IMG/VR virus record: IMGVR_UViG_3300036806_000210
Coordinates: 1-20,763 of that record
Origin: a virus
Reading direction: 5' to 3' (one strand)
Length of the DNA stretch: 20,763 nt
A model generated the notes under the pieces. That model was not told where the DNA came from. It made no database searches and saw only the letters and a program-made list of their open reading frames with translations. Shown one piece after another: positions 573 to 19,823 of this stretch (positions are counted from its first letter, which is position 1; every line of letters begins with the position of its first letter). Made by a program: the position numbers and the translations under genes.

Positions 573-734
573 CTAGGCTTCTTCATCGAGCGGATCGAAG
601 CCCAGCAGTGAAACAACGTCGGCGGGAGTTTCTGCTAATTCGCTATCGTCATCGAGATCGTCATCGTCTGCAATCGCGCGCCAATCAATCGCTGGCGTAT
701 CCACGCTTCCAAACTGGATATCAGGCAGTGGCAT
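573..734 (-). CDS. Small acidic protein downstream of portal, function unknown
   Basis: A 53-residue protein whose ATG at 734 overlaps the last 14 bases of the portal gene in another frame. GAGGGG lies just upstream of this ATG, so I prefer it to an in-frame start at 767. It is very acidic (a DDDDLDDD run near residues 23-30) and ends with the motif DVVSLLGFDPLDEE. The overlap implies translational coupling to the portal gene. I do not recognise the family. The acidic character and the place between portal and protease would fit a small head-assembly or scaffold-like role, but this is a guess from position. Confidence 0.6.
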   Translation of the reverse strand: MPLPDIQFGSVDTPAIDWRAIADDDDLDDDSELAETPADVVSLLGFDPLDEEA

Positions 735-3261
735 GTTGCCCCTCGATACCATTGCGCCATGATGCAAACACTACCGGGCTGATATAGCTTTGCAACGCCA
801 CTGTGGGAGTATTGCCGAGTTTGCCAGAGACATGCTTAGCCACTTCCATCACGGCCTTTTTATAGCCAGTCTCATTGGTTGGAGCCGGGATGCTTTCCAT
901 CTTCTGCATCGCTTCCCGTGTGCCGAGCAATGTCCGAAAGTCTTTCGTCTTGAACTTGCCACCATTGAGAGTATGCGTGTATTCAAGAAGTGATTTGTCA
1001 CTCACTCCCGGAAACAGTTTTCCGTCTGCGCCGGCCTTTTGAGAACGCTCTCGCAAGATTGCAGCTAGGTTCTTGTCGGCCACTTTCAGATTCAGGGCCA
1101 CTCCCTTTTTCCCAGTGAAGCGCAAATACGTTTCGTCTCCTTCGGTTACTACATGGCGGCCTTCTAGCGTTGTAGCGCCGTATGCCTTCTGTTTCGCCTT
1201 GGTGTCGGTGTCGCTTCCCGGCCGTATGCCCATGCTCATCACAAGCTGAGATACTTGGGCGTTTTCCCGTACTTTGGCATCGGTCGATGACTGGAGCCGC
1301 TCTTCATTCTGTTTCCGCACTTTGTCAAACTTGGCATCTAGTTCTTTGATCCGTGCGAACTTCACGGCTGACTGACTCTTAGCGAACCGCTCGGAATACA
1401 CGTACTGCGCACGGCCCTTGGCGTCTTTGCCGATAGCCATCAGATCACCAGATGGATCGGGGTTGATCCTGACTTCATTCCATGCCGGTGGCAGCTTCAA
1501 CGCCTTGATGTGTTGTGGCCACTGTTCACGATTCGATGGAGCCGCTATTAGCGATGGCTTATTAGTGCTCTTGCTTGTCGTGAGGGCGGCTCCGCTATTG
1601 GGGCTGCTGGCTGCTGAGGATGCGCCACCACCGGGGCCTGACGTAAACTCACCACCGCCCGGACTGCCTGCTGACTCTCGCGGATGATCCGCTTCGCTCC
1701 ACTCGTCCTTAGTGGGCTTCTTTGATTTCGCCTGGGGATTATCGGCCTTAGCCTCTTCCTTCGGCGTCGCTTTCTTGGACTCTGTTTCTACCTGTTTAGC
1801 GGCGGCCTTGCTTTTTGTTTTACTGCCGCCGATATCCCCAAGCTCGTCATCGTTTAACGAATCCGGGCTTTCCGACTCCGCTTCTCCCAATTGCAGCGTG
1901 GTGTCGTCGCTTGCTGCTTCGATCTGCTCATCCGTGATGTTGGTCCACAATCCCGTGGCGTCGGACTGTTGGCGAAGTTCTTTCAGGCTTGTTTGCTGAC
2001 CAATAATGCCGCTGTTAAATACGCTCACCACCGCATCGGTGTTGGCTTTTCCTAGCTCGGCGCGTTCCTTTTCTGTCAATACCCGGGATGGCGCAAAACG
2101 ATAATCGAAATCCCGAGGCACATTGCCGAACGTGCTCATGGCAATCACGGGGAACAGTCTGTCTAAATTAGGCTGGAGGTCGTTCACCTGCTTCTGCGAC
2201 ACCATTTCGTCGTAGTTGTGTTCGTCGCCCTCGTTCGATTGGCCTAACCCAGTTTTGGTATCACCGTACAACTTGGTCATGGGGATGCCGGCAGCGCCGC
2301 ATACATCCAGCATGATCTTTTCGTATACATCCGCTAGTCCACCAAAACTATAGGCGTGATTCTCCATCCCTCCGGTATCGGGCAGAGCTAGCAGTCCCTG
2401 GCTGGTCATTAACTCGCTTTGGGCCGATAGCACGTTATAGGCCTGCTGTGCCAATACGCCGCCCGTGGCCAGCATCTGGTCCATGTTCTTGAACTTCAGC
2501 GCCATGATGTTGGCGCGAAACACGAGCGATGCGATATTCCAGCTGGTGTTGTCTCGCTTGCGAAGTTCGTCAAAGATCAGTTCATATTCACTGATGCCCC
2601 AGCGCATTTCCGCTTGCCATTCCCACATCGGCAGCGGCCGCCCGACAAAGCGCAACACACGGGAGCTATGCACCTTATACGCCCCGCCGTGTTCTGTGGT
2701 GATAATGTAATTGGCTGGTAGGCCGAAGTCCCGCGGATTGTTGAGATCCGTGTTCACTTCTTCACTGGGAGTGATGCCGCTCCAGCGGTCAAACACCAAC
2801 AGTCCCCGATAAGAATCTAGTTCAACGTCTTCGAGATCCAGCGGCTGATCCAGGATGCCTTCGTGGCCCTTAATCATCATCACCGCGCCGGCGCCGCCGA
2901 ACAATCTTCCCCAACGGATGCCTTCTAGTAATTTGCCGCGTGTTCCGGTGTGACGAACTACGCGATCGAATTCATCGATCTGCTTGGGCTTGACCTGGGA
3001 GTTGATGATCACCCAGTTCTTCATCATGTCTTCGGCTATGCAATCGATAACCCGCCTGGCTATCCAGTGGGACCGATACAGCGAAAGGCACAGAATATAA
3101 TTGCGTGTGAGGCGAGTAAGCGGATACGCCGTGGATTCCAGCAGATTCGGCGTGCCGTGCCCAGTCCTGGCGAGCGGATTAGAAAAAGCATCCTGCACAG
3201 CACGGTCCATCGTATATGGCCCGGTTAGCCGCTGCTGTTTGACCTTGCAGTTAAACTGCAT
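721..3261 (-). CDS. Portal protein (DUF1073-like) fused to a C-terminal type IB DNA topoisomerase
   Basis: An 846-residue protein with two parts. Residues about 18-450 form a DUF1073-type portal (for example GTPNLLESTAYPLTRLTRNY, SHWIARRVIDCIAEDM, IPMTKLYGDTKTGLGQSNEG), the dodecameric ring through which DNA is packaged and ejected. Residues about 455-575 are a low-complexity Lys/Glu/Ser/Gly linker with a PGGGEFTSGPGGG stretch. Residues about 583-835 match a poxvirus/bacterial-type topoisomerase IB: LPPAWNEVRINPDP, GRAQYVYSERF, R680 (SMGIRPGS), ATTLEGRHV, K718 (FTGKKG), R776 (KDFRT), N817 (LGNTP) and nucleophile Y826 (SYISP). The full pentad is present, with Asn replacing the His of vaccinia enzyme. 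The frame is continuous. The first ATG at 3261 has only weak SD-like sequence (AGG about 10 bases upstream); the ATG at 3210 (MDRAVQDAF) fits portal starts better. Both domains are confident; relaxation activity inside the virion is inferred. Confidence 0.9.
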   Translation of the reverse strand: MQFNCKVKQQRLTGPYTMDRAVQDAFSNPLARTGHGTPNLLESTAYPLTRLTRNYILCLSLYRSHWIARRVIDCIAEDMMKNWVIINSQVKPKQIDEFDRVVRHTGTRGKLLEGIRWGRLFGGAGAVMMIKGHEGILDQPLDLEDVELDSYRGLLVFDRWSGITPSEEVNTDLNNPRDFGLPANYIITTEHGGAYKVHSSRVLRFVGRPLPMWEWQAEMRWGISEYELIFDELRKRDNTSWNIASLVFRANIMALKFKNMDQMLATGGVLAQQAYNVLSAQSELMTSQGLLALPDTGGMENHAYSFGGLADVYEKIMLDVCGAAGIPMTKLYGDTKTGLGQSNEGDEHNYDEMVSQKQVNDLQPNLDRLFPVIAMSTFGNVPRDFDYRFAPSRVLTEKERAELGKANTDAVVSVFNSGIIGQQTSLKELRQQSDATGLWTNITDEQIEAASDDTTLQLGEAESESPDSLNDDELGDIGGSKTKSKAAAKQVETESKKATPKEEAKADNPQAKSKKPTKDEWSEADHPRESAGSPGGGEFTSGPGGGASSAASSPNSGAALTTSKSTNKPSLIAAPSNREQWPQHIKALKLPPAWNEVRINPDPSGDLMAIGKDAKGRAQYVYSERFAKSQSAVKFARIKELDAKFDKVRKQNEERLQSSTDAKVRENAQVSQLVMSMGIRPGSDTDTKAKQKAYGATTLEGRHVVTEGDETYLRFTGKKGVALNLKVADKNLAAILRERSQKAGADGKLFPGVSDKSLLEYTHTLNGGKFKTKDFRTLLGTREAMQKMESIPAPTNETGYKKAVMEVAKHVSGKLGNTPTVALQSYISPVVFASWRNGIEGQHATA

Positions 3262-5798: not shown

Positions 5799-7178
5799 TT
5801 ATTGATTGATCACGGGCGCCGATATGGCGTATAGATTGGAGCCATCAAAACTGGCAAATTCCTGTACACCGCATTTACTGGCCGTCATGATGGACGGGTC
5901 AAAGGCGCCCTTAATGGCGGTCGGCCATACGAACGTGCGCCCGGCTGTAGCGTCCTCACAGACTTGGATCATGGCCGTTTGGCCCTGCACTACTCCGGTT
6001 ACTGAGCTGCTGGTGACGTTACCCGTCAGCGTGATAGTCTGCAGCACTATGCCGTTACCGCCAAGCGCGAAAGTAGGAGTGCTCGAGAACGTAACCGTTG
6101 TGGCTATTCCGATCGTTGGTGACGCCCAAGTGCCATCGCCGCGGAAGAACGTGGAACTGGACGCACTCGTTCCGCTATTCATCTGCGATGTAGCTATGTT
6201 TCCCTTTAGATTGGTAAACGATGACTGTAATGCGTAAGCCGTCGACGTGCTGTTGGCGTGGAACGTCGTGGCTAGACATGTACTAGCTGTCGCCGTTCCG
6301 GCCGCCGTGCTAATCGTGGGTGCATTACTGACGGTGGTGGGCCATACAAACGTGCGTCCGCCAGTCCCGTCCTGACAAATCAGAAACGTTAAGTGCTGCC
6401 CTGACAGCATGTTGGTAATCGTTGAACTGGTTACGTTTCCTGTTAGCGTGATCACCTGAAGATCCGACAGAGATGCATCAAACGCTGGGGTGGACGAGAA
6501 GCTGACTGTATTGATTGGCGTAACGTTGCGCCCTGTGATCAAGGTCCCCGGAGCGGCTGTTCCGGTATTCACTTGCACTTGGCCGGCGCTAGCTCTTGAG
6601 AAGTACGTATCTGCTGAAACATCGGCCGTAGTGCTGCTGCTTGACCAACCAAGTACTCCCCCCGAAGTGGTGTTGACTACTGGATTTGCGCCTCCGTTGA
6701 TGATGGCTAACGGATTTATGCTGTTGGTGGTGTCCTTTATGCTTAGAGTGCCAGCCGATTCGTTAAGCCGAAATGTATGGTGGGAGCTTTCCGTTCCGGT
6801 CAGGCTGAAGTACGGAGTTGAGCCTGTAAGATCCACGACTCCATCCGTGACGGTGAACTTCGAGTTGCCATTATTAGGCCACACACTAAACGGCTTTGTA
6901 GTACTCCCGGCTCCCTGGAGGATCTTGAATAGATAGCCCGTTCCGCTGTTACTTGTGCCATCTTGCAGAACAAACAAATCTCCTGAACTGGTAGTGGTAT
7001 TCCATGTGCGTGTTTCGGAATTAGCCGCCATGGTGAGGCTTGTGTTTCCGCTTGGGTTAGTGATTAAATTCCACGGAAGATGAATATTCTCTGGTGTTCC
7101 ATTGATGTCCTGGGCAATAAGTCTGCCCATGACAACGCACGCACACAGGCATACCGCGACTGCAATTGGTTTCAGCAT
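5799..7178 (-). CDS. Tail fibre or adhesin with signal peptide and two copies of a beta module
   Basis: A 459-residue protein. Residues 1-22 look like a Sec signal peptide (MLKPIAVAVCLCACVVMGRL). Residues about 35-160 form a fibre-type beta region. Residues about 224-316 and 361-454 are two copies of one module with the shared pattern FSSTPxF, ITLTGNVTSS, GQ, and GRTFVWP. They are joined by a linker of the kind seen in phage fibres (MNSGTSASSSTFFRGDGTWA). A third copy lies in the protein at 12656-13270. The role is probably receptor binding or fibre structure next to the tailspike encoded immediately downstream. No Shine-Dalgarno is visible before the ATG. Since fibres are normally assembled in the cytoplasm, the signal peptide is odd; an alternative is a phage-encoded protein displayed on the host surface. 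Confidence 0.75.
   Translation of the reverse strand: MLKPIAVAVCLCACVVMGRLIAQDINGTPENIHLPWNLITNPSGNTSLTMAANSETRTWNTTTSSGDLFVLQDGTSNSGTGYLFKILQGAGSTTKPFSVWPNNGNSKFTVTDGVVDLTGSTPYFSLTGTESSHHTFRLNESAGTLSIKDTTNSINPLAIINGGANPVVNTTSGGVLGWSSSSTTADVSADTYFSRASAGQVQVNTGTAAPGTLITGRNVTPINTVSFSSTPAFDASLSDLQVITLTGNVTSSTITNMLSGQHLTFLICQDGTGGRTFVWPTTVSNAPTISTAAGTATASTCLATTFHANSTSTAYALQSSFTNLKGNIATSQMNSGTSASSSTFFRGDGTWASPTIGIATTVTFSSTPTFALGGNGIVLQTITLTGNVTSSSVTGVVQGQTAMIQVCEDATAGRTFVWPTAIKGAFDPSIMTASKCGVQEFASFDGSNLYAISAPVINQ
5817..6098 (-). repeat. Adhesin module, copy 2 (residues about 361-454 of the fibre)
   Basis: Protein-level repeat of about 92 residues with the signature FSSTPTF ... ITLTGNVTSS ... GQ ... 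GRTFVWPT. It is clearly diverged at the nucleotide level from the other two copies, so it is an old duplication or shuffled domain rather than a recent repeat. Confidence 0.75.
6231..6509 (-). repeat. Adhesin module, copy 1 (residues about 224-316 of the fibre)
   Basis: Same module as at 5817-6098 and 12680-12952. This copy carries NTVSFSSTPAFDASL, ITLTGNVTSSTI and TGGRTFVWP, and is closer in wording to the copy at 12680-12952 (NTVSFSTTPTFDASL) than to its neighbour in the same protein. Confidence 0.75.
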
Positions 7179-7208
7179 GGAGAGGGTAATAGGTATACGG
7201 CGCGGATG

Positions 7209-7286
7209 TTAATCGAGTTTGCCGCCCTTGCGGGCTATGCCAAACAGCACGCAGACGAGATCTATAACTAGGCGAATGAAATACAT
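7209..7286 (-). CDS. Possible 25-residue small membrane peptide
   Basis: A short frame from ATG 7286 to TAA 7209 reads MYFIRLVIDLVCVLFGIARK followed by GGKLD: a hydrophobic stretch of about 15 residues and a basic end. It fills the gap between the Ig-like gene and the fibre gene. No good Shine-Dalgarno is visible and nothing is recognised, so this may be chance. The rest of the gap 7179-7364 shows no other feature I can support. Confidence 0.25.
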   Translation of the reverse strand: MYFIRLVIDLVCVLFGIARKGGKLD

Positions 7287-7364
7287 GAAATGCTTACTGT
7301 GCTGGACGTTTGTCCGGGCCTTGCGTGTCTCTTGTCGTTTTTGCTACCGGGAAAGCGCCCGCGC

Positions 7365-7420
7365 CTACTTGCCATATCCGTTCTGACCGTAGCCGCCTGG
7401 CCCGTAACCGCTCCCCGGGA
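7365..7420 (-). other. -1 frame Gly/Tyr-rich extension of the Ig-like protein
   Basis: Directly past the stop of the Ig-like gene (TAG 7421-7423) the -1 frame reads LVPGSGYGPGGYGQNGYGK and stops with TAG at 7365-7367. This frame has no ATG upstream before a stop at 7596-7598. The junction is ACC CCT TAG: tRNA-Pro on CCT can slip back one base to CCC with a stop in the A site. Either a programmed -1 frameshift or a one-base indel in the CCCC run would attach this 19-residue tail. The composition looks selected rather than random. Confidence 0.4.
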
Positions 7421-7744
7421 CTAAGGGGTCGGCGTGCCGAAGGTGACCACTAGCTGGGAGGCAACGCCGGCTTTCAGCGTAATTGCCACGGATGCCGAAA
7501 GAACTTCCGTTTTAGTGTCTGCCTCGGTTGCTGTTGCCGTGATGCTCAACGTCGCCTGCCCCACCGCAACGCCAGTGATGATTCCGCCCAGCAGGTTATT
7601 AGGATCAGTAGCTACGGTAAAGACCGCGGGATTGTCAGACGATACGCCTACAGCCGATAGCACCGCGCTACTGGGATGGCCGGCGCTATCCGTGGGTGCT
7701 ATCGAGAACTTCACCACTTGGTCATATGCCATCGAAAATTGCAT
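7421..7744 (-). CDS. Bacterial Ig-like (Big_2 type) domain virion protein
   Basis: A 107-residue protein made almost entirely of one Ig-like beta-sandwich domain (FSIAPTDSAGHPSSA, SDNPAVFTVATDP, GIITGVAVGQATLSITATA). Such domains decorate phage capsids, tails and fibres and give weak adhesion to surfaces. I chose the ATG at 7744 because AAGAGG lies nine bases upstream. The same frame stays open to an ATG at 7870, which would add 42 Trp-rich residues (FWRNLWRFYWNGRW) with only poor ribosome binding sequence; that longer form cannot be excluded. The frame ends at ACC CCT TAG, where a -1 slip would add a Gly/Tyr-rich tail (7365-7420). It lies between a glycosyltransferase gene and the fibre gene. 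Confidence 0.7.
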   Translation of the reverse strand: MQFSMAYDQVVKFSIAPTDSAGHPSSAVLSAVGVSSDNPAVFTVATDPNNLLGGIITGVAVGQATLSITATATEADTKTEVLSASVAITLKAGVASQLVVTFGTPTP

Positions 7745-7753
7745 GTTAATTAA

Positions 7754-7759
7754 CCTCTT
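7754..7759 (-). promoter_or_regulatory. Ribosome binding site deciding the start of the Ig-like gene
   Basis: AAGAGG on the minus strand, nine bases before ATG 7744. It is one of the best Shine-Dalgarno matches in the window and favours the shorter protein over the start at 7870. Confidence 0.65.
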
Positions 7760-7899
7760 GTGATCGATCGAAATATTCAGTTTCGTGATTGGGGGATGCC
7801 AGCGCCCATTCCAATAGAAACGCCAGAGATTCCGCCAGAAATCACCCAATGAGAGATTCTTTGATTCCATTTCTATTTCGCTGGCGGGTCGGGCTTTGT

Positions 7900-7973
7900 C
7901 CTCGGTGGAAGAACGCAGCCGGAGTGTCTACATTACTTGTCGGAAGAACCGGGATTCTTCCTATCCACCGAGG
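7900..7973 (-). repeat. Long inverted repeat enclosing a second hairpin
   Basis: A perfect 10-base inverted repeat, CCTCGGTGGA (7973-7964) and TCCACCGAGG (7909-7900). Inside it GGAAGAA and TTCTTCC (7961-7955 and 7948-7942) form a 7-bp hairpin with a 6-base loop. A further TTCTTCC at the base of the right arm could pair alternatively with GGAAGAA. No U-run follows, so it is not a standard terminator. It could be a structured RNA, an operator, or a recombination site remnant. Confidence 0.6.
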
Positions 7974-8040
7974 TCTTGAAGTGGCGGCGCCTGCTCTGCG
8001 TGGCGCCCTACTGTCAGCGGGACGTGTTTAATGGTCGAGG

Positions 8041-8057
8041 TTCACGGAATTCGTGAA
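8041..8057 (-). repeat. Short inverted repeat just past the glycosyltransferase gene
   Basis: TTCACG and CGTGAA are separated by five bases, about ten bases after the glycosyltransferase stop. No T-run follows on the minus strand, so it is at most a weak RNA 3' structure or a protein-binding palindrome. Confidence 0.45.
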
Positions 8058-8066
8058 GCAGCACGA

Positions 8067-9128
8067 CTATTTCACTTCAGTAGAATCTTCATCGCGCAAG
8101 CCAAAATAATCCCGCACTGCGTATTGCAGTTTTGGGTTACGGCCGGTCCATTGCCATAGCCCCTGCACGTCATATTTGATATCCCGCAGAGAGTCGAAGC
8201 CGTTTTCGGTAAGCACGGCCCACTTGCTCACATACCTACGATTTGCCTTGGCCCCGTGCCAGTAATGGATGATCGTTCCTGGTACAAATCCAACATTACG
8301 TTTGATGTGCTGCTCGGCCCGCTCTTGCCAGATTCCCCAGTACTGCTTATACGTCTGGTGGATCGCTCGAGGATACGACTTATCGACATTGCCGATTAAT
8401 GCCGACGCCATGTGGTGATCGCCACTGCCTAAGATGGCGATATCGCCTAAGCCGCCGAGATCACTTAATGCGCTGCGGCGCGCCGCCCAGGCGTATCCGG
8501 GATGGTACAGCGGCTTTCCGTTATCGTCTCCATAATAATAACGGCTTTCCCTGTTCGGTTCCCGATCCTCAAAGAGAGGATTGCCCATCTTCGGATGACC
8601 GTTCTGGCAGTAATGCGCCATGAAGCCGTTAAACAGTTTCAGGGGCTCAGAATTAGGCCCCAAATCGAGAGCGTGCGAAAACAACTGCACTACTTGGTAA
8701 TGCTGTAATTGATGCACCGTCTCGGCGGCCCAGTCTGGTCGGGCAAACTGAACGTCTGCATCAATCCAGGCAACATATTCCCAATCGGACGGCAATCGGC
8801 TGATTCCAGCGTTGGTCAGATTCTCCTTGTAGAAGATCTCATTGGGCGATCGTAGTTGAATATGTCGGGGGTTGTTCGCCTGGGTGACTTCGAAATGCCT
8901 GTCTCGTAGCGCGACCTCGACCGTATACAGGATGGCGCCTGCATCGGCGCACATCTTCTCGAACGCCCGATACAGTTTGTACCGTGAATAGTACCTCTTG
9001 GGGTTGAATATGGTGGTTACCACGTACAGCGGTGACGAAACCGGGTGAATGTGGTGCTGATGCTGTGAAGGATGATAGGATGGCGTTCCTTCCAGTGCCG
9101 CGTCAGCTGCGGGTGTAATATACTTCAA
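8067..9128 (-). CDS. Glycosyltransferase with GT-A-like fold
   Basis: A 353-residue protein. After a short His/Pro-rich N-terminus (HPSQHQHHIHPV), residues 34-160 read as a nucleotide-sugar GT-A domain: LYVVTTIFNPKRY opens the fold and WEYVAWIDADVQFARPDW holds the metal-binding DxD (D123, D125). The later text HPGYAWAARRSAL, GSGDHHMASALIG and IIHYWHGAKANRRY resembles the acceptor half of phage-encoded family-2-like enzymes. The start is TTG at 9128, supported by GGGAG seven bases upstream. The acceptor is unknown: virion fibres, host surface sugar, or hydroxymethylated DNA bases are all possible. It lies within the adhesion block, which leans towards protein or surface glycan, but the genome also encodes a TET-TAGT enzyme. 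Confidence 0.72.
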   Translation of the reverse strand: MKYITPAADAALEGTPSYHPSQHQHHIHPVSSPLYVVTTIFNPKRYYSRYKLYRAFEKMCADAGAILYTVEVALRDRHFEVTQANNPRHIQLRSPNEIFYKENLTNAGISRLPSDWEYVAWIDADVQFARPDWAAETVHQLQHYQVVQLFSHALDLGPNSEPLKLFNGFMAHYCQNGHPKMGNPLFEDREPNRESRYYYGDDNGKPLYHPGYAWAARRSALSDLGGLGDIAILGSGDHHMASALIGNVDKSYPRAIHQTYKQYWGIWQERAEQHIKRNVGFVPGTIIHYWHGAKANRRYVSKWAVLTENGFDSLRDIKYDVQGLWQWTGRNPKLQYAVRDYFGLRDEDSTEVK

Positions 9129-17565: not shown

Positions 17566-18093
17566 TCACTCTTCGGGGGGATCTACCGGCACGACATTTA
17601 CTGATCCGCTGGGTATGGGATCATTCGCAGCGTCTTCATCGTCATCGTCTTCGCTGGAACTTCTAAGCGACTCGGCCAATTCTCGCATCAGCCCTTCGGT
17701 GCCTGTCGATTCATTGCGCTGCGGCCCCCATTTGCTACGTTCCTTCACTTCCAGCCAGAACCGCGCCGCCCTGAAATCCGGCAGTACATCCTCTTCGTAC
17801 TCGTGTTCAATAACTTTCCCTTGATCCTTGTCGTAGAAAAATTTCTTGGTTTTGTGCCGGTAGCCCAAGGCCATTCGATGGAGCGAGGCCGCAACCTTAG
17901 CCGTTGCCGGTTGATTCCCCCTACGAATCGCTTCGGAAAAATCGGCATACTGCTTCTTCCATTCGATCAGTGTGTCGACGTGAATGGAGAGCTGTTCGGC
18001 TATTTCCGCTTGTGTGTAACCGGCTAATGCAAGGTCGTAAGCGATGCCTACGAAGGAGGGGTCATATTTAGTGGGACGCCCCACGTTGGCCAT
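17566..18093 (-). CDS. terS: Terminase small subunit
   Basis: A 175-residue DNA-recognition subunit of the packaging terminase. It opens GRPTKYDPSFVGIAYDLALA, then a helix-turn-helix (YTQAEIAEQLSIHVDTLIEW, about 26-45) typical of TerS. The middle (ATAKVAASLHRMALGYRHKT, FRAARFWLEVKERSKWG) fits the oligomerisation region and the family's usual R-x-WLE-x-K pattern. The C-terminus is acidic and disordered (SSSEDDDDED), probably for contact with TerL. It starts 20 bases after the TET-TAGT gene with no good Shine-Dalgarno. Confidence 0.88.
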   Translation of the reverse strand: MANVGRPTKYDPSFVGIAYDLALAGYTQAEIAEQLSIHVDTLIEWKKQYADFSEAIRRGNQPATAKVAASLHRMALGYRHKTKKFFYDKDQGKVIEHEYEEDVLPDFRAARFWLEVKERSKWGPQRNESTGTEGLMRELAESLRSSSEDDDDEDAANDPIPSGSVNVVPVDPPEE

Positions 18094-18113: not shown

Positions 18114-19823
18114 TTACGAATTGGAACTTCGGAAGGATTGCCAGTTGATCCGGACATCCATGCCGCCCGGCTTTGTTACAAGCTTGCTAACTTTCGGCCA
18201 AAGCGCATGCACACACTTTGCGGCCACTAGGTGCCTCCCGGACTTATAAGCGTTACTGAGACCGCCTGCCACGTTAGCTCCCATCTTGGGTTTAGCCATT
18301 GCGAAGCGGTGAGATAGGAGTGTTTGCCACCCTGCGGTTAAATGCTGCACAGTAAAGTCGACATCTTCCTTCGTCTCTGTTTCGTTGCGGTAATTTATAT
18401 CCGTGTGAGTATCTGTCAGCACACAGCAGTAGGCTCGGTTGTTTAGGCTATATGGTTTTTTCTTAGCTGCGAAACAAGCAAATTGGACATAATCCGCCGC
18501 CGCCAGTGCAACTCTTCCGTGAATGCCGCGCACTTGATTCTCTATGCCGCGGAGGGCGACGGATGCTGGTATTTTGTCTTGTTTACCTTCTTCATTTACA
18601 CGTAGAAACTGCCGAATATTGTCGTCTATCTGCCAATACCTTTTCAGTTTCTGATGCCGTGCGTGCTCCAATATAAACTGCCGCACAAAGGTTATGCCTC
18701 GATTGCCTTGGGGAAGGATTAACAGTGTAGCGTTCGGGTGTTGACGACGATACGCGCCTTCTTCCTGCGGCTCAACCACAGCGGTATACGGCAGCCCGCT
18801 GGCCTCTAGTTGCGAGAATAATGCAGCGTTGGGGCGACCCTTTGAAGGGACGAATATAGGAAACGTGACGACCTTTTCACTATCGTCAAAAGCGGCGAGT
18901 TCTAGCCCCTTTTTTATGGGCCTCGGCCCAACTATAGTCTTGGCGCGCTCGAGTTCCTTCTCTGGCGTTTCGCACTCCTGTATCTTCTCGCGGTAATAGA
19001 ACACGCAAGCGATGCGCTCATATTTGGGCGTGATGCCAACAATCGGAGTATTGCCGTGCCACTCGTGTACATCCGCTAGCAGCACGTCGCTGGTGCGCAT
19101 GTCCACAGCCACCCGGAATTCAGGGAATACCGTGTATCCACCGCTGTACTTACCGCCCTGTACAACGCTCATTACGCCGAAGCCTTGCTTTAGGTCGCCG
19201 GCATCCTGGTGTGCGAGAGTGCGAAAATTTTTGTTTACTGTAATTGTTGTGAAAGCGGTGCCGTGTATTACAAACGAAGGCTCCGTTCTCTTAACTACAT
19301 CCAGTTGTGCAGAGTGCCTAGCTGGGTTGACGCTCTTGAAGTGTTGATCCACAAGCCGGATGTAATCCATACACTCGGCAAACAACTCCGGGTGATTCAG
19401 GCTGAACGCTGTTTTGCGGCAATACGGGAAGCGCGTACCGGTGCGGTCGCGGTTCATAAATCCGATAAGCCCGCTGCCAACGCCCTTAAGTTCTGGATAT
19501 TTACTGATTCTTATTCTGGTCTGTTTGGATAGTGTGCCGTCAGGATACCTGGCGCTCTCGGAACGGCCCAGCGCTGCCGTGGGACGATTGCTAGGGTCTC
19601 CACCGACAACACGTAAGGCTTTGTATGCTCGTGAGCAAACTTCTTGAGCGATGATGTTCTTGCGGAACTGGAGAAGAATCTCTCCGTTCGGCTTAATAAC
19701 GTCGGCATCCTCAGTTACCAGGACATCGATATTCTTTTCGGTGAGCGGCTTCCCTTTCCACGCCTCTCCCTGCTCCGCGGCGCTGCGAACCGGACCATTT
19801 AGCCGGATAACTTTCACAGCCAT
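18114..19823 (-). CDS. TET/JBP dioxygenase fused to TET-associated glycosyltransferase (DNA hypermodification)
   Basis: A 569-residue protein with two enzymes in one chain. Residues about 33-285 are a TET/JBP 2-oxoglutarate/Fe(II) dioxygenase: DVIKPNGEILLQFRK, iron ligands H205-x-D207 (TLAHQDAGD), the distal His in DVHEWHGNTP (H253 or H256), and an Arg for 2-oxoglutarate in YERIACVFYYR (R270 or R278). Such phage enzymes oxidise 5-methylcytosine to 5-hydroxymethylcytosine. Residues about 320-560 are a TAGT glycosyltransferase: PIFVPSKGR, VVEPQEE, LPQGNRGITFVR, and the DDN of YWQIDDNI (400-402), with a later TKEDVDF. It would add sugar to the hydroxymethyl group. It starts six bases after the ParB-like gene and precedes terS. 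Domain calls are strong; the exact base and sugar cannot be read from sequence. Confidence 0.9.
   Translation of the reverse strand: MAVKVIRLNGPVRSAAEQGEAWKGKPLTEKNIDVLVTEDADVIKPNGEILLQFRKNIIAQEVCSRAYKALRVVGGDPSNRPTAALGRSESARYPDGTLSKQTRIRISKYPELKGVGSGLIGFMNRDRTGTRFPYCRKTAFSLNHPELFAECMDYIRLVDQHFKSVNPARHSAQLDVVKRTEPSFVIHGTAFTTITVNKNFRTLAHQDAGDLKQGFGVMSVVQGGKYSGGYTVFPEFRVAVDMRTSDVLLADVHEWHGNTPIVGITPKYERIACVFYYREKIQECETPEKELERAKTIVGPRPIKKGLELAAFDDSEKVVTFPIFVPSKGRPNAALFSQLEASGLPYTAVVEPQEEGAYRRQHPNATLLILPQGNRGITFVRQFILEHARHQKLKRYWQIDDNIRQFLRVNEEGKQDKIPASVALRGIENQVRGIHGRVALAAADYVQFACFAAKKKPYSLNNRAYCCVLTDTHTDINYRNETETKEDVDFTVQHLTAGWQTLLSHRFAMAKPKMGANVAGGLSNAYKSGRHLVAAKCVHALWPKVSKLVTKPGGMDVRINWQSFRSSNS

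Follow-up and report, generated by a model that had tools for sequence, protein, structure and literature searches.

The phage TET cytosine pathway of Burke et al. 2021 comprises a C5-methyltransferase (C5-MTase), a TET dioxygenase and glycosyltransferases, reportedly as separate enzymes, and yields a TET-made hydroxymethyl base that is then glycosylated. Kinetoplastid base J synthesis (JBP1/2 and JGT) likewise couples a TET/JBP dioxygenase to a subsequent glycosyltransferase, but it is a eukaryotic route with separate proteins and thymine as substrate, and JGT is a different glycosyltransferase from TAGT. In phage T6, beta-glucosyl-HMC-alpha-glucosyltransferase (PF20691, PHROG 842) adds a second sugar to a base whose hydroxymethyl group was introduced at the nucleotide level. 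Human LH3 (PLOD3), which hydroxylates and glycosylates collagen lysine, joins a 2-oxoglutarate dioxygenase to a GT-A glycosyltransferase in one chain. Nonlabens phage P12024L encodes both phage families as two proteins (gp26-gp27), with the TET and TAGT frames the same and a single TAA between them.

We analysed a complete IMG/VR record, a 20,763-nt linear fragment of metagenomic DNA (hereafter the window), in which a TET/JBP dioxygenase and a TAGT glycosyltransferase form one 569-aa protein (Table 1). The gene order is that of P12024L, and identity to gp26-gp27 over the whole length is 34%; however, the window has one protein where that phage has two, and the ParB gene immediately upstream in the window has no detected counterpart at that place in P12024L. 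The C-terminal half shares its family with the T6 enzyme, which is not fused, and no C5-MTase was seen with the window gene, in contrast to the phage TET cytosine pathway. LH3 was among the structural matches of the fused-protein model, but its domain order is opposite to that in the window and its substrate is collagen; the likeness is one of analogy only. The initial annotation had placed the fused gene at 18144-19727; the open reading frame was confirmed, although that extent fell short by ~100 nt upstream and 30 nt downstream.

Table 1. Positions of the fused gene, its parts and its immediate neighbours in the window.
Feature	Position (nt)	Strand	Remarks
ParB-like protein, 272 aa	19830..20648	-	PHROG 620, E 1.1e-35; directly upstream, 6 nt from the TET start
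Fused TET/JBP dioxygenase-TAGT glycosyltransferase, 569 aa	18114..19823	-	ATG 19821-19823, stop 18114-18116
TET/JBP half, residues 1-298	18930..19823	-	PF12851; structural match to TET2 and NgTet1
HxD iron motif H205-Q206-D207	19203..19211	-	H and D invariant in 71/71 TET homologues
Distal iron ligand H256	19056..19058	-	Invariant in 71/71; aligns with distal His of TET2
2-oxoglutarate-binding R270	19014..19016	-	Invariant in 71/71; aligns with Arg of the TET2 R-I-S-L-V motif
Linker, residues 299-319	18867..18929	-	No in-frame start codon; disorder predicted at 300-311
TAGT glycosyltransferase half, residues 320-569, GT-A fold (predicted)	18117..18866	-	PF20691; GT-A matches at Z about 15
TAGT metal/sugar-nucleotide motif D400-D401 (IDDN)	18621..18626	-	Invariant in 74/74 non-redundant TAGTs
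TAGT E-D-x-D motif, D487...D489	18357..18365	-	D487 in 74/74, D489 in 70/74
Terminase small subunit, next gene downstream	17566..18093	-	PHROG 309, E 3.8e-32

Pfam profile search matched both PF12851 and PF20691 within the one 569-aa chain. Tet_JBP (PF12851) covered residues 133-279 (E 1.1e-23, 83.7 bits against a cut-off of 34.9), in accord with a PHROGs match to phrog_24024 at residues 106-296, and TAGT (PF20691) covered residues 321-517 (E 6.5e-30, 105 bits against a cut-off of 27.5), with phrog_842 (beta-glucosyl-HMC-alpha-glucosyltransferase) matched at residues 321-562. The earlier claim that the two enzymes share a single polypeptide was thus borne out by one minus-strand open reading frame in which both Pfam matches lie far over their cut-offs, as was the claim that both active sites are intact, since H205-Q-D207, the distal H256 and I399-D400-D401-N402 were all present. 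A profile of the TET clade aligned H205, D207, H256 and R270 with the HxD motif, distal His and Arg of human TET2, and all residues invariant in 74 non-redundant TAGTs (R330, Y358, R381, D400, D401, D487, G520 and G521) were found in the window protein. PDB sequence searches gave no match, either with the single fused protein as query, where TET2 was found by the profile instead, or with the TAGT half. When the TAGT half by itself was the query of a viral scan, no relative turned up; an alignment-based scan did find relatives. From these sequence features, the first half would oxidise 5-methylcytosine (5mC) or thymine in DNA, and the second would transfer a sugar onto the resulting hydroxymethyl base.

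An AlphaFold model of the fused protein was built from 68 aligned sequences of the window and the loci, of which five were same-frame pairs read through a single TAA. Its mean pLDDT was 90.8; two domains were modelled with confidence, whereas confidence was low at residues 300-311. The pTM was 0.59, and the model therefore does not give the placement of the two domains relative to each other. In a structural search, the first domain matched TET2 (Z 22.1 over 263 residues), NgTet1 (Z 19.5), CMD1 (18.8) and CcTet (18.5), and the second matched the GT-A glycosyltransferases GalNAc-T2 (Z 15.7) and PcManGT (Z 15.6), as well as TarP. As modelled, the first domain is a TET2/NgTet1-like double-stranded beta-helix fold and the second is a GT-A fold. 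With a linker predicted to be disordered and this low pTM, the model lends no support to the direct passage of the oxidised base from one site to the other that the initial annotation had suggested.

We compared the fused gene with loci collected by two IMG/VR scans with TET queries and one with TAGT, together with annotated phages, for totals of 177 TET and 96 TAGT loci (counted per locus, overlaps included). TET and TAGT were both present in ~50 loci, mostly adjoining and in the order TET then TAGT, a pairing that is nothing unusual in viral contigs. Only in the window did they form one open reading frame, in agreement with the initial annotation, which had described them as separate genes in its best-known examples. 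No fusion appeared in the annotation of any match among 50,697 phage records, and a search of plasmids gave no match. A scan of GTDB found one relative, a contig of a Spirulina MAG with the order ParB-TET-TAGT-terminase-like, in which TET and TAGT are separate genes with a 16-nt overlap and the last gene is a 493-aa open reading frame that we take to be a terminase. The fusion is unique among the loci compared, and the original TAGT and phage-TET papers or their supplements may describe one.

As all other TET/TAGT pairs are separate, often overlapping or one stop codon apart, and as the fused gene comes from a single metagenomic contig, it is possible that a missed base or misassembly joined what are separate genes in the phage genome. 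We consider such an artefact improbable. There is no in-frame ATG, GTG or TTG between residues 274 and 349, so that the TAGT half cannot start by itself and the fusion looks genuine. Moreover, when single indels were simulated through the junction, no homopolymer indel gave a normal two-gene layout, and a frameshift or missed stop was set aside as an unlikely origin of the fusion. With one base more in the AAAA run close to where TAGT begins, the genes would overlap by 116 nt, against at most 50 nt in most relatives; a wrong length of the AAAAAAGGGG run would leave TAGT without a start; and a neat gene pair would result only from a base missing in a non-repetitive stretch immediately ahead of the TAGT domain. 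A simple path to a genuine fusion is suggested by five loci (L001, L082, L090, L120 and L125) in which TET and TAGT share a reading frame, are separated by one TAA and have the TAGT ATG just before the domain, since in such pairs fusion would result from one lost stop codon.

The Pfam matches, the invariant catalytic residues, the two-domain model and the conserved gene context together suggest, with a probability that we put at about 0.8, that the fused gene encodes a bifunctional phage DNA-hypermodification enzyme. Acting on phage DNA once it has been replicated or while it is being copied, the TET/JBP half would use Fe(II), 2-oxoglutarate and O2 to hydroxylate a pyrimidine at its 5-methyl group. 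The TAGT half, with its predicted GT-A fold, a metal and a nucleotide-sugar, would add a sugar to the new hydroxyl. The ParB-like protein encoded upstream may help to bring this module to DNA. Two adjacent co-oriented genes, often found as ParB-TET-TAGT, would have merged here through a flexible linker of ~20 residues, which would fix the two activities at a 1:1 ratio and keep the second enzyme near newly oxidised bases. The product would be glycosyl-5-hydroxymethylcytosine (glycosyl-5hmC) made from 5mC, or glycosyl-5-hydroxymethyluracil (glycosyl-5hmU), like base J, made from thymine. It is also conceivable that one of the halves is a passenger or has another role, the TET half only binding DNA or the TAGT half adding a second sugar as in T2/T6, and the T6 member of PF20691 does glucosylate a base that is already glucosylated (PMC13216743). 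However, the catalytic residues of both halves are intact, a glycosyltransferase fused to a hydroxylase is more simply read as making the first transfer, and no other DNA glycosyltransferase was found in the 20.8-kb fragment by Pfam and PHROG searches; we regard these alternative roles as quite unlikely.

It is established that phages with glycosylated bases resist restriction and many Cas nucleases (PMC13216743, PMC11404850), and by analogy the fused gene may confer such nuclease resistance. The DNA of DLP6, a phage with distant TET and TAGT, has been described as restriction-enzyme resistant (PMC8228603), but those data come without per-enzyme results and so do not decide between cytosine and thymine. 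If the bifunctional reading is correct, this one-gene route to sugar-modified DNA could serve as a tool in which one protein sugar-tags a methylated or unmethylated pyrimidine, and it would allow a direct test of whether modification becomes denser when the two steps are linked.

The initial annotation had named sugar-modified cytosine as the product. Its two enzymes and their probable joint role held up, but cytosine as the base was not established, since the fragment has no C5-MTase, most relatives are without one, and sister TETs lie beside 5hmU-type kinase/ADDT genes. Base-J-like glycosyl-5hmU and glycosyl-5hmC appear about as plausible, and thymine is a serious candidate for the substrate of this TET clade, which occurs with ParB and mostly without a C5-MTase; its substrate would show whether phages make base J. 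If cytosine is the base, a C5-MTase encoded beyond the fragment end or by the host would produce 5mC, TET would convert this to 5hmC and TAGT would add the sugar, a course of events to which we would give nearly an even chance. C5-MTase genes were found within 4.5 kb of TET in 5/91 non-redundant loci (L073, L088, L095, L097 and L219), and their presence within about 4.5 kb of TET in L088, L095, L097, L219 and Melnitz-3 is consistent with this route. Residue D210 (HxD+3) aligns with what we take, from the NgTet1 numbering, to be D234 of that enzyme. Mutation of D234 inactivates NgTet1 (PMC11404850), and cytosine is the route characterised for phage TETs, as the work of Burke 2021 is cited in PMC12730594 and PMC11404850. 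We rejected D210 as a marker of cytosine versus thymine, as D stands at this position in 69/71 TETs, including the C5-MTase-linked one, and a residue conserved in nearly all TETs whatever their neighbours does not discriminate between the two bases. Against the cytosine route, Pfam and PHROG searches of the 20.8-kb fragment, which is incomplete, showed no C5-MTase, and only 1/38 TET-related and 3/28 TET+TAGT records have one. Whole-record searches with PF00145, in which many records are fragments, were positive in that one of 38 TET-related records and in 2/6 and 5/50 related records, the last five comprising three with TET (L088, L092 and L104) and two without TET. Furthermore, no C5-MTase was found in six of seven complete TET phages (P12024L, HTVC112P, DLP6, Cr30, S-CBWM1 and C48C1), whereas the same search readily found one directly before TET in Melnitz-3 (2.2e-56). 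With no C5-MTase visible in most relatives, a phage route from 5mC to 5hmC would be without a visible source of 5mC in most of the clade.

If instead the TET half acts like kinetoplastid JBP, it would convert thymine to 5hmU, and TAGT would make a base-J-like glycosyl-5hmU with no need of a methyltransferase; we judge this a real possibility that falls somewhat short of even odds. The near absence from relatives of both C5-MTase and a thymidylate-synthase-type hydroxymethylase is in its favour, the latter being undetected in 37/38 TET-related records, so that TET is the likely source of the hydroxyl. Sister TETs adjoin a set consisting of a P-loop nucleotide kinase, ADDT, GATase and radical SAM genes, and such kinase/amino-acid-transferase sets are known from thymine hypermodification. 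A characterised phage kinase like those beside the sister TETs acts on 5hmdU in phage DNA (PMC6449724), although the kinases of the sister loci could act on 5hmC. Among the 91 non-redundant TET loci, TAGT was nearby in 29 and kinase/ADDT in 35, with no overlap (Fisher p 4e-7 on 81 tree rows, a count that ignores kinship and in which TAGT loci come partly from a TAGT-directed scan); such exclusivity would be expected of enzymes that share one hydroxymethyl base as substrate. In this respect TAGT and the kinase/ADDT set resemble two options for a second step on a single base. A C5-MTase does occur in some relatives, however, and 5mC might be host-made. The still more specific proposal that the window encodes a single bifunctional phage enzyme acting on thymine to give base-J-like glycosyl-5hmU, and thereby the first one-chain DNA hydroxylase-glycosyltransferase, is tentative, and we would sooner bet against it than for it.

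The ParB gene upstream of TET is shared by 65/91 of the non-redundant TET loci. Other recognisable genes in the window, the small and large terminase, portal and head morphogenesis genes, have packaging or structural roles. A second unusual fusion was observed at 721-3261 on the minus strand, where an 846-aa open reading frame joins a portal protein (PF06381, 6.7e-92, residues 59-411) to a topoisomerase IB core (PF01028, 1.1e-18, residues 628-822; also PF21338). The C-terminal part of this protein also matches phrog_23460, of unknown function, and an IMG/VR scan with the whole 846-aa protein gave no match.

The closest TET to that of the window, in L005, is 63-64% identical and grouped with it at full tree support, but the gene adjoining it encodes a diverged TAGT that shares only 17% identity with the window TAGT. 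The nearest TAGT (41%) was instead found in L066, a record in which TET was not detected. The TAGT partner was therefore probably exchanged after the window and L005 TETs diverged, as judged from these identities. In the L005 TAGT-like gene (1864-2601), LSDD replaces IDD(N/D), with D400 changed to S, so that its activity may differ or be lost; this suggests that the partner changes quickly, which counts against the bifunctional reading. The L066 contig, of 61 kb, carries two TAGT genes in tandem (7013-8741). The TAGTs of Vibrio phages 1.076.O and 1.124.O (L074:5719-6885 and L075:5767-6927) have an N-terminal extension of ~100 residues of unknown identity. In public records, the TET/JBP proteins of DLP6, Cr30, S-CBWM1 and HTVC112P (L003, L070, L071 and L002) are mislabelled 'SNF2 DNA repair protein' or 'DnaJ chaperone', which conceals their identity. 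Finally, a 726-aa protein of L068 (7782-9959) combines TET/JBP with a C-terminal domain that has a weak P-loop kinase match (PF18751, below cut-off); it may be a hydroxylase-kinase fusion, a counterpart to the joining of hydroxylase and glycosyltransferase in the window.
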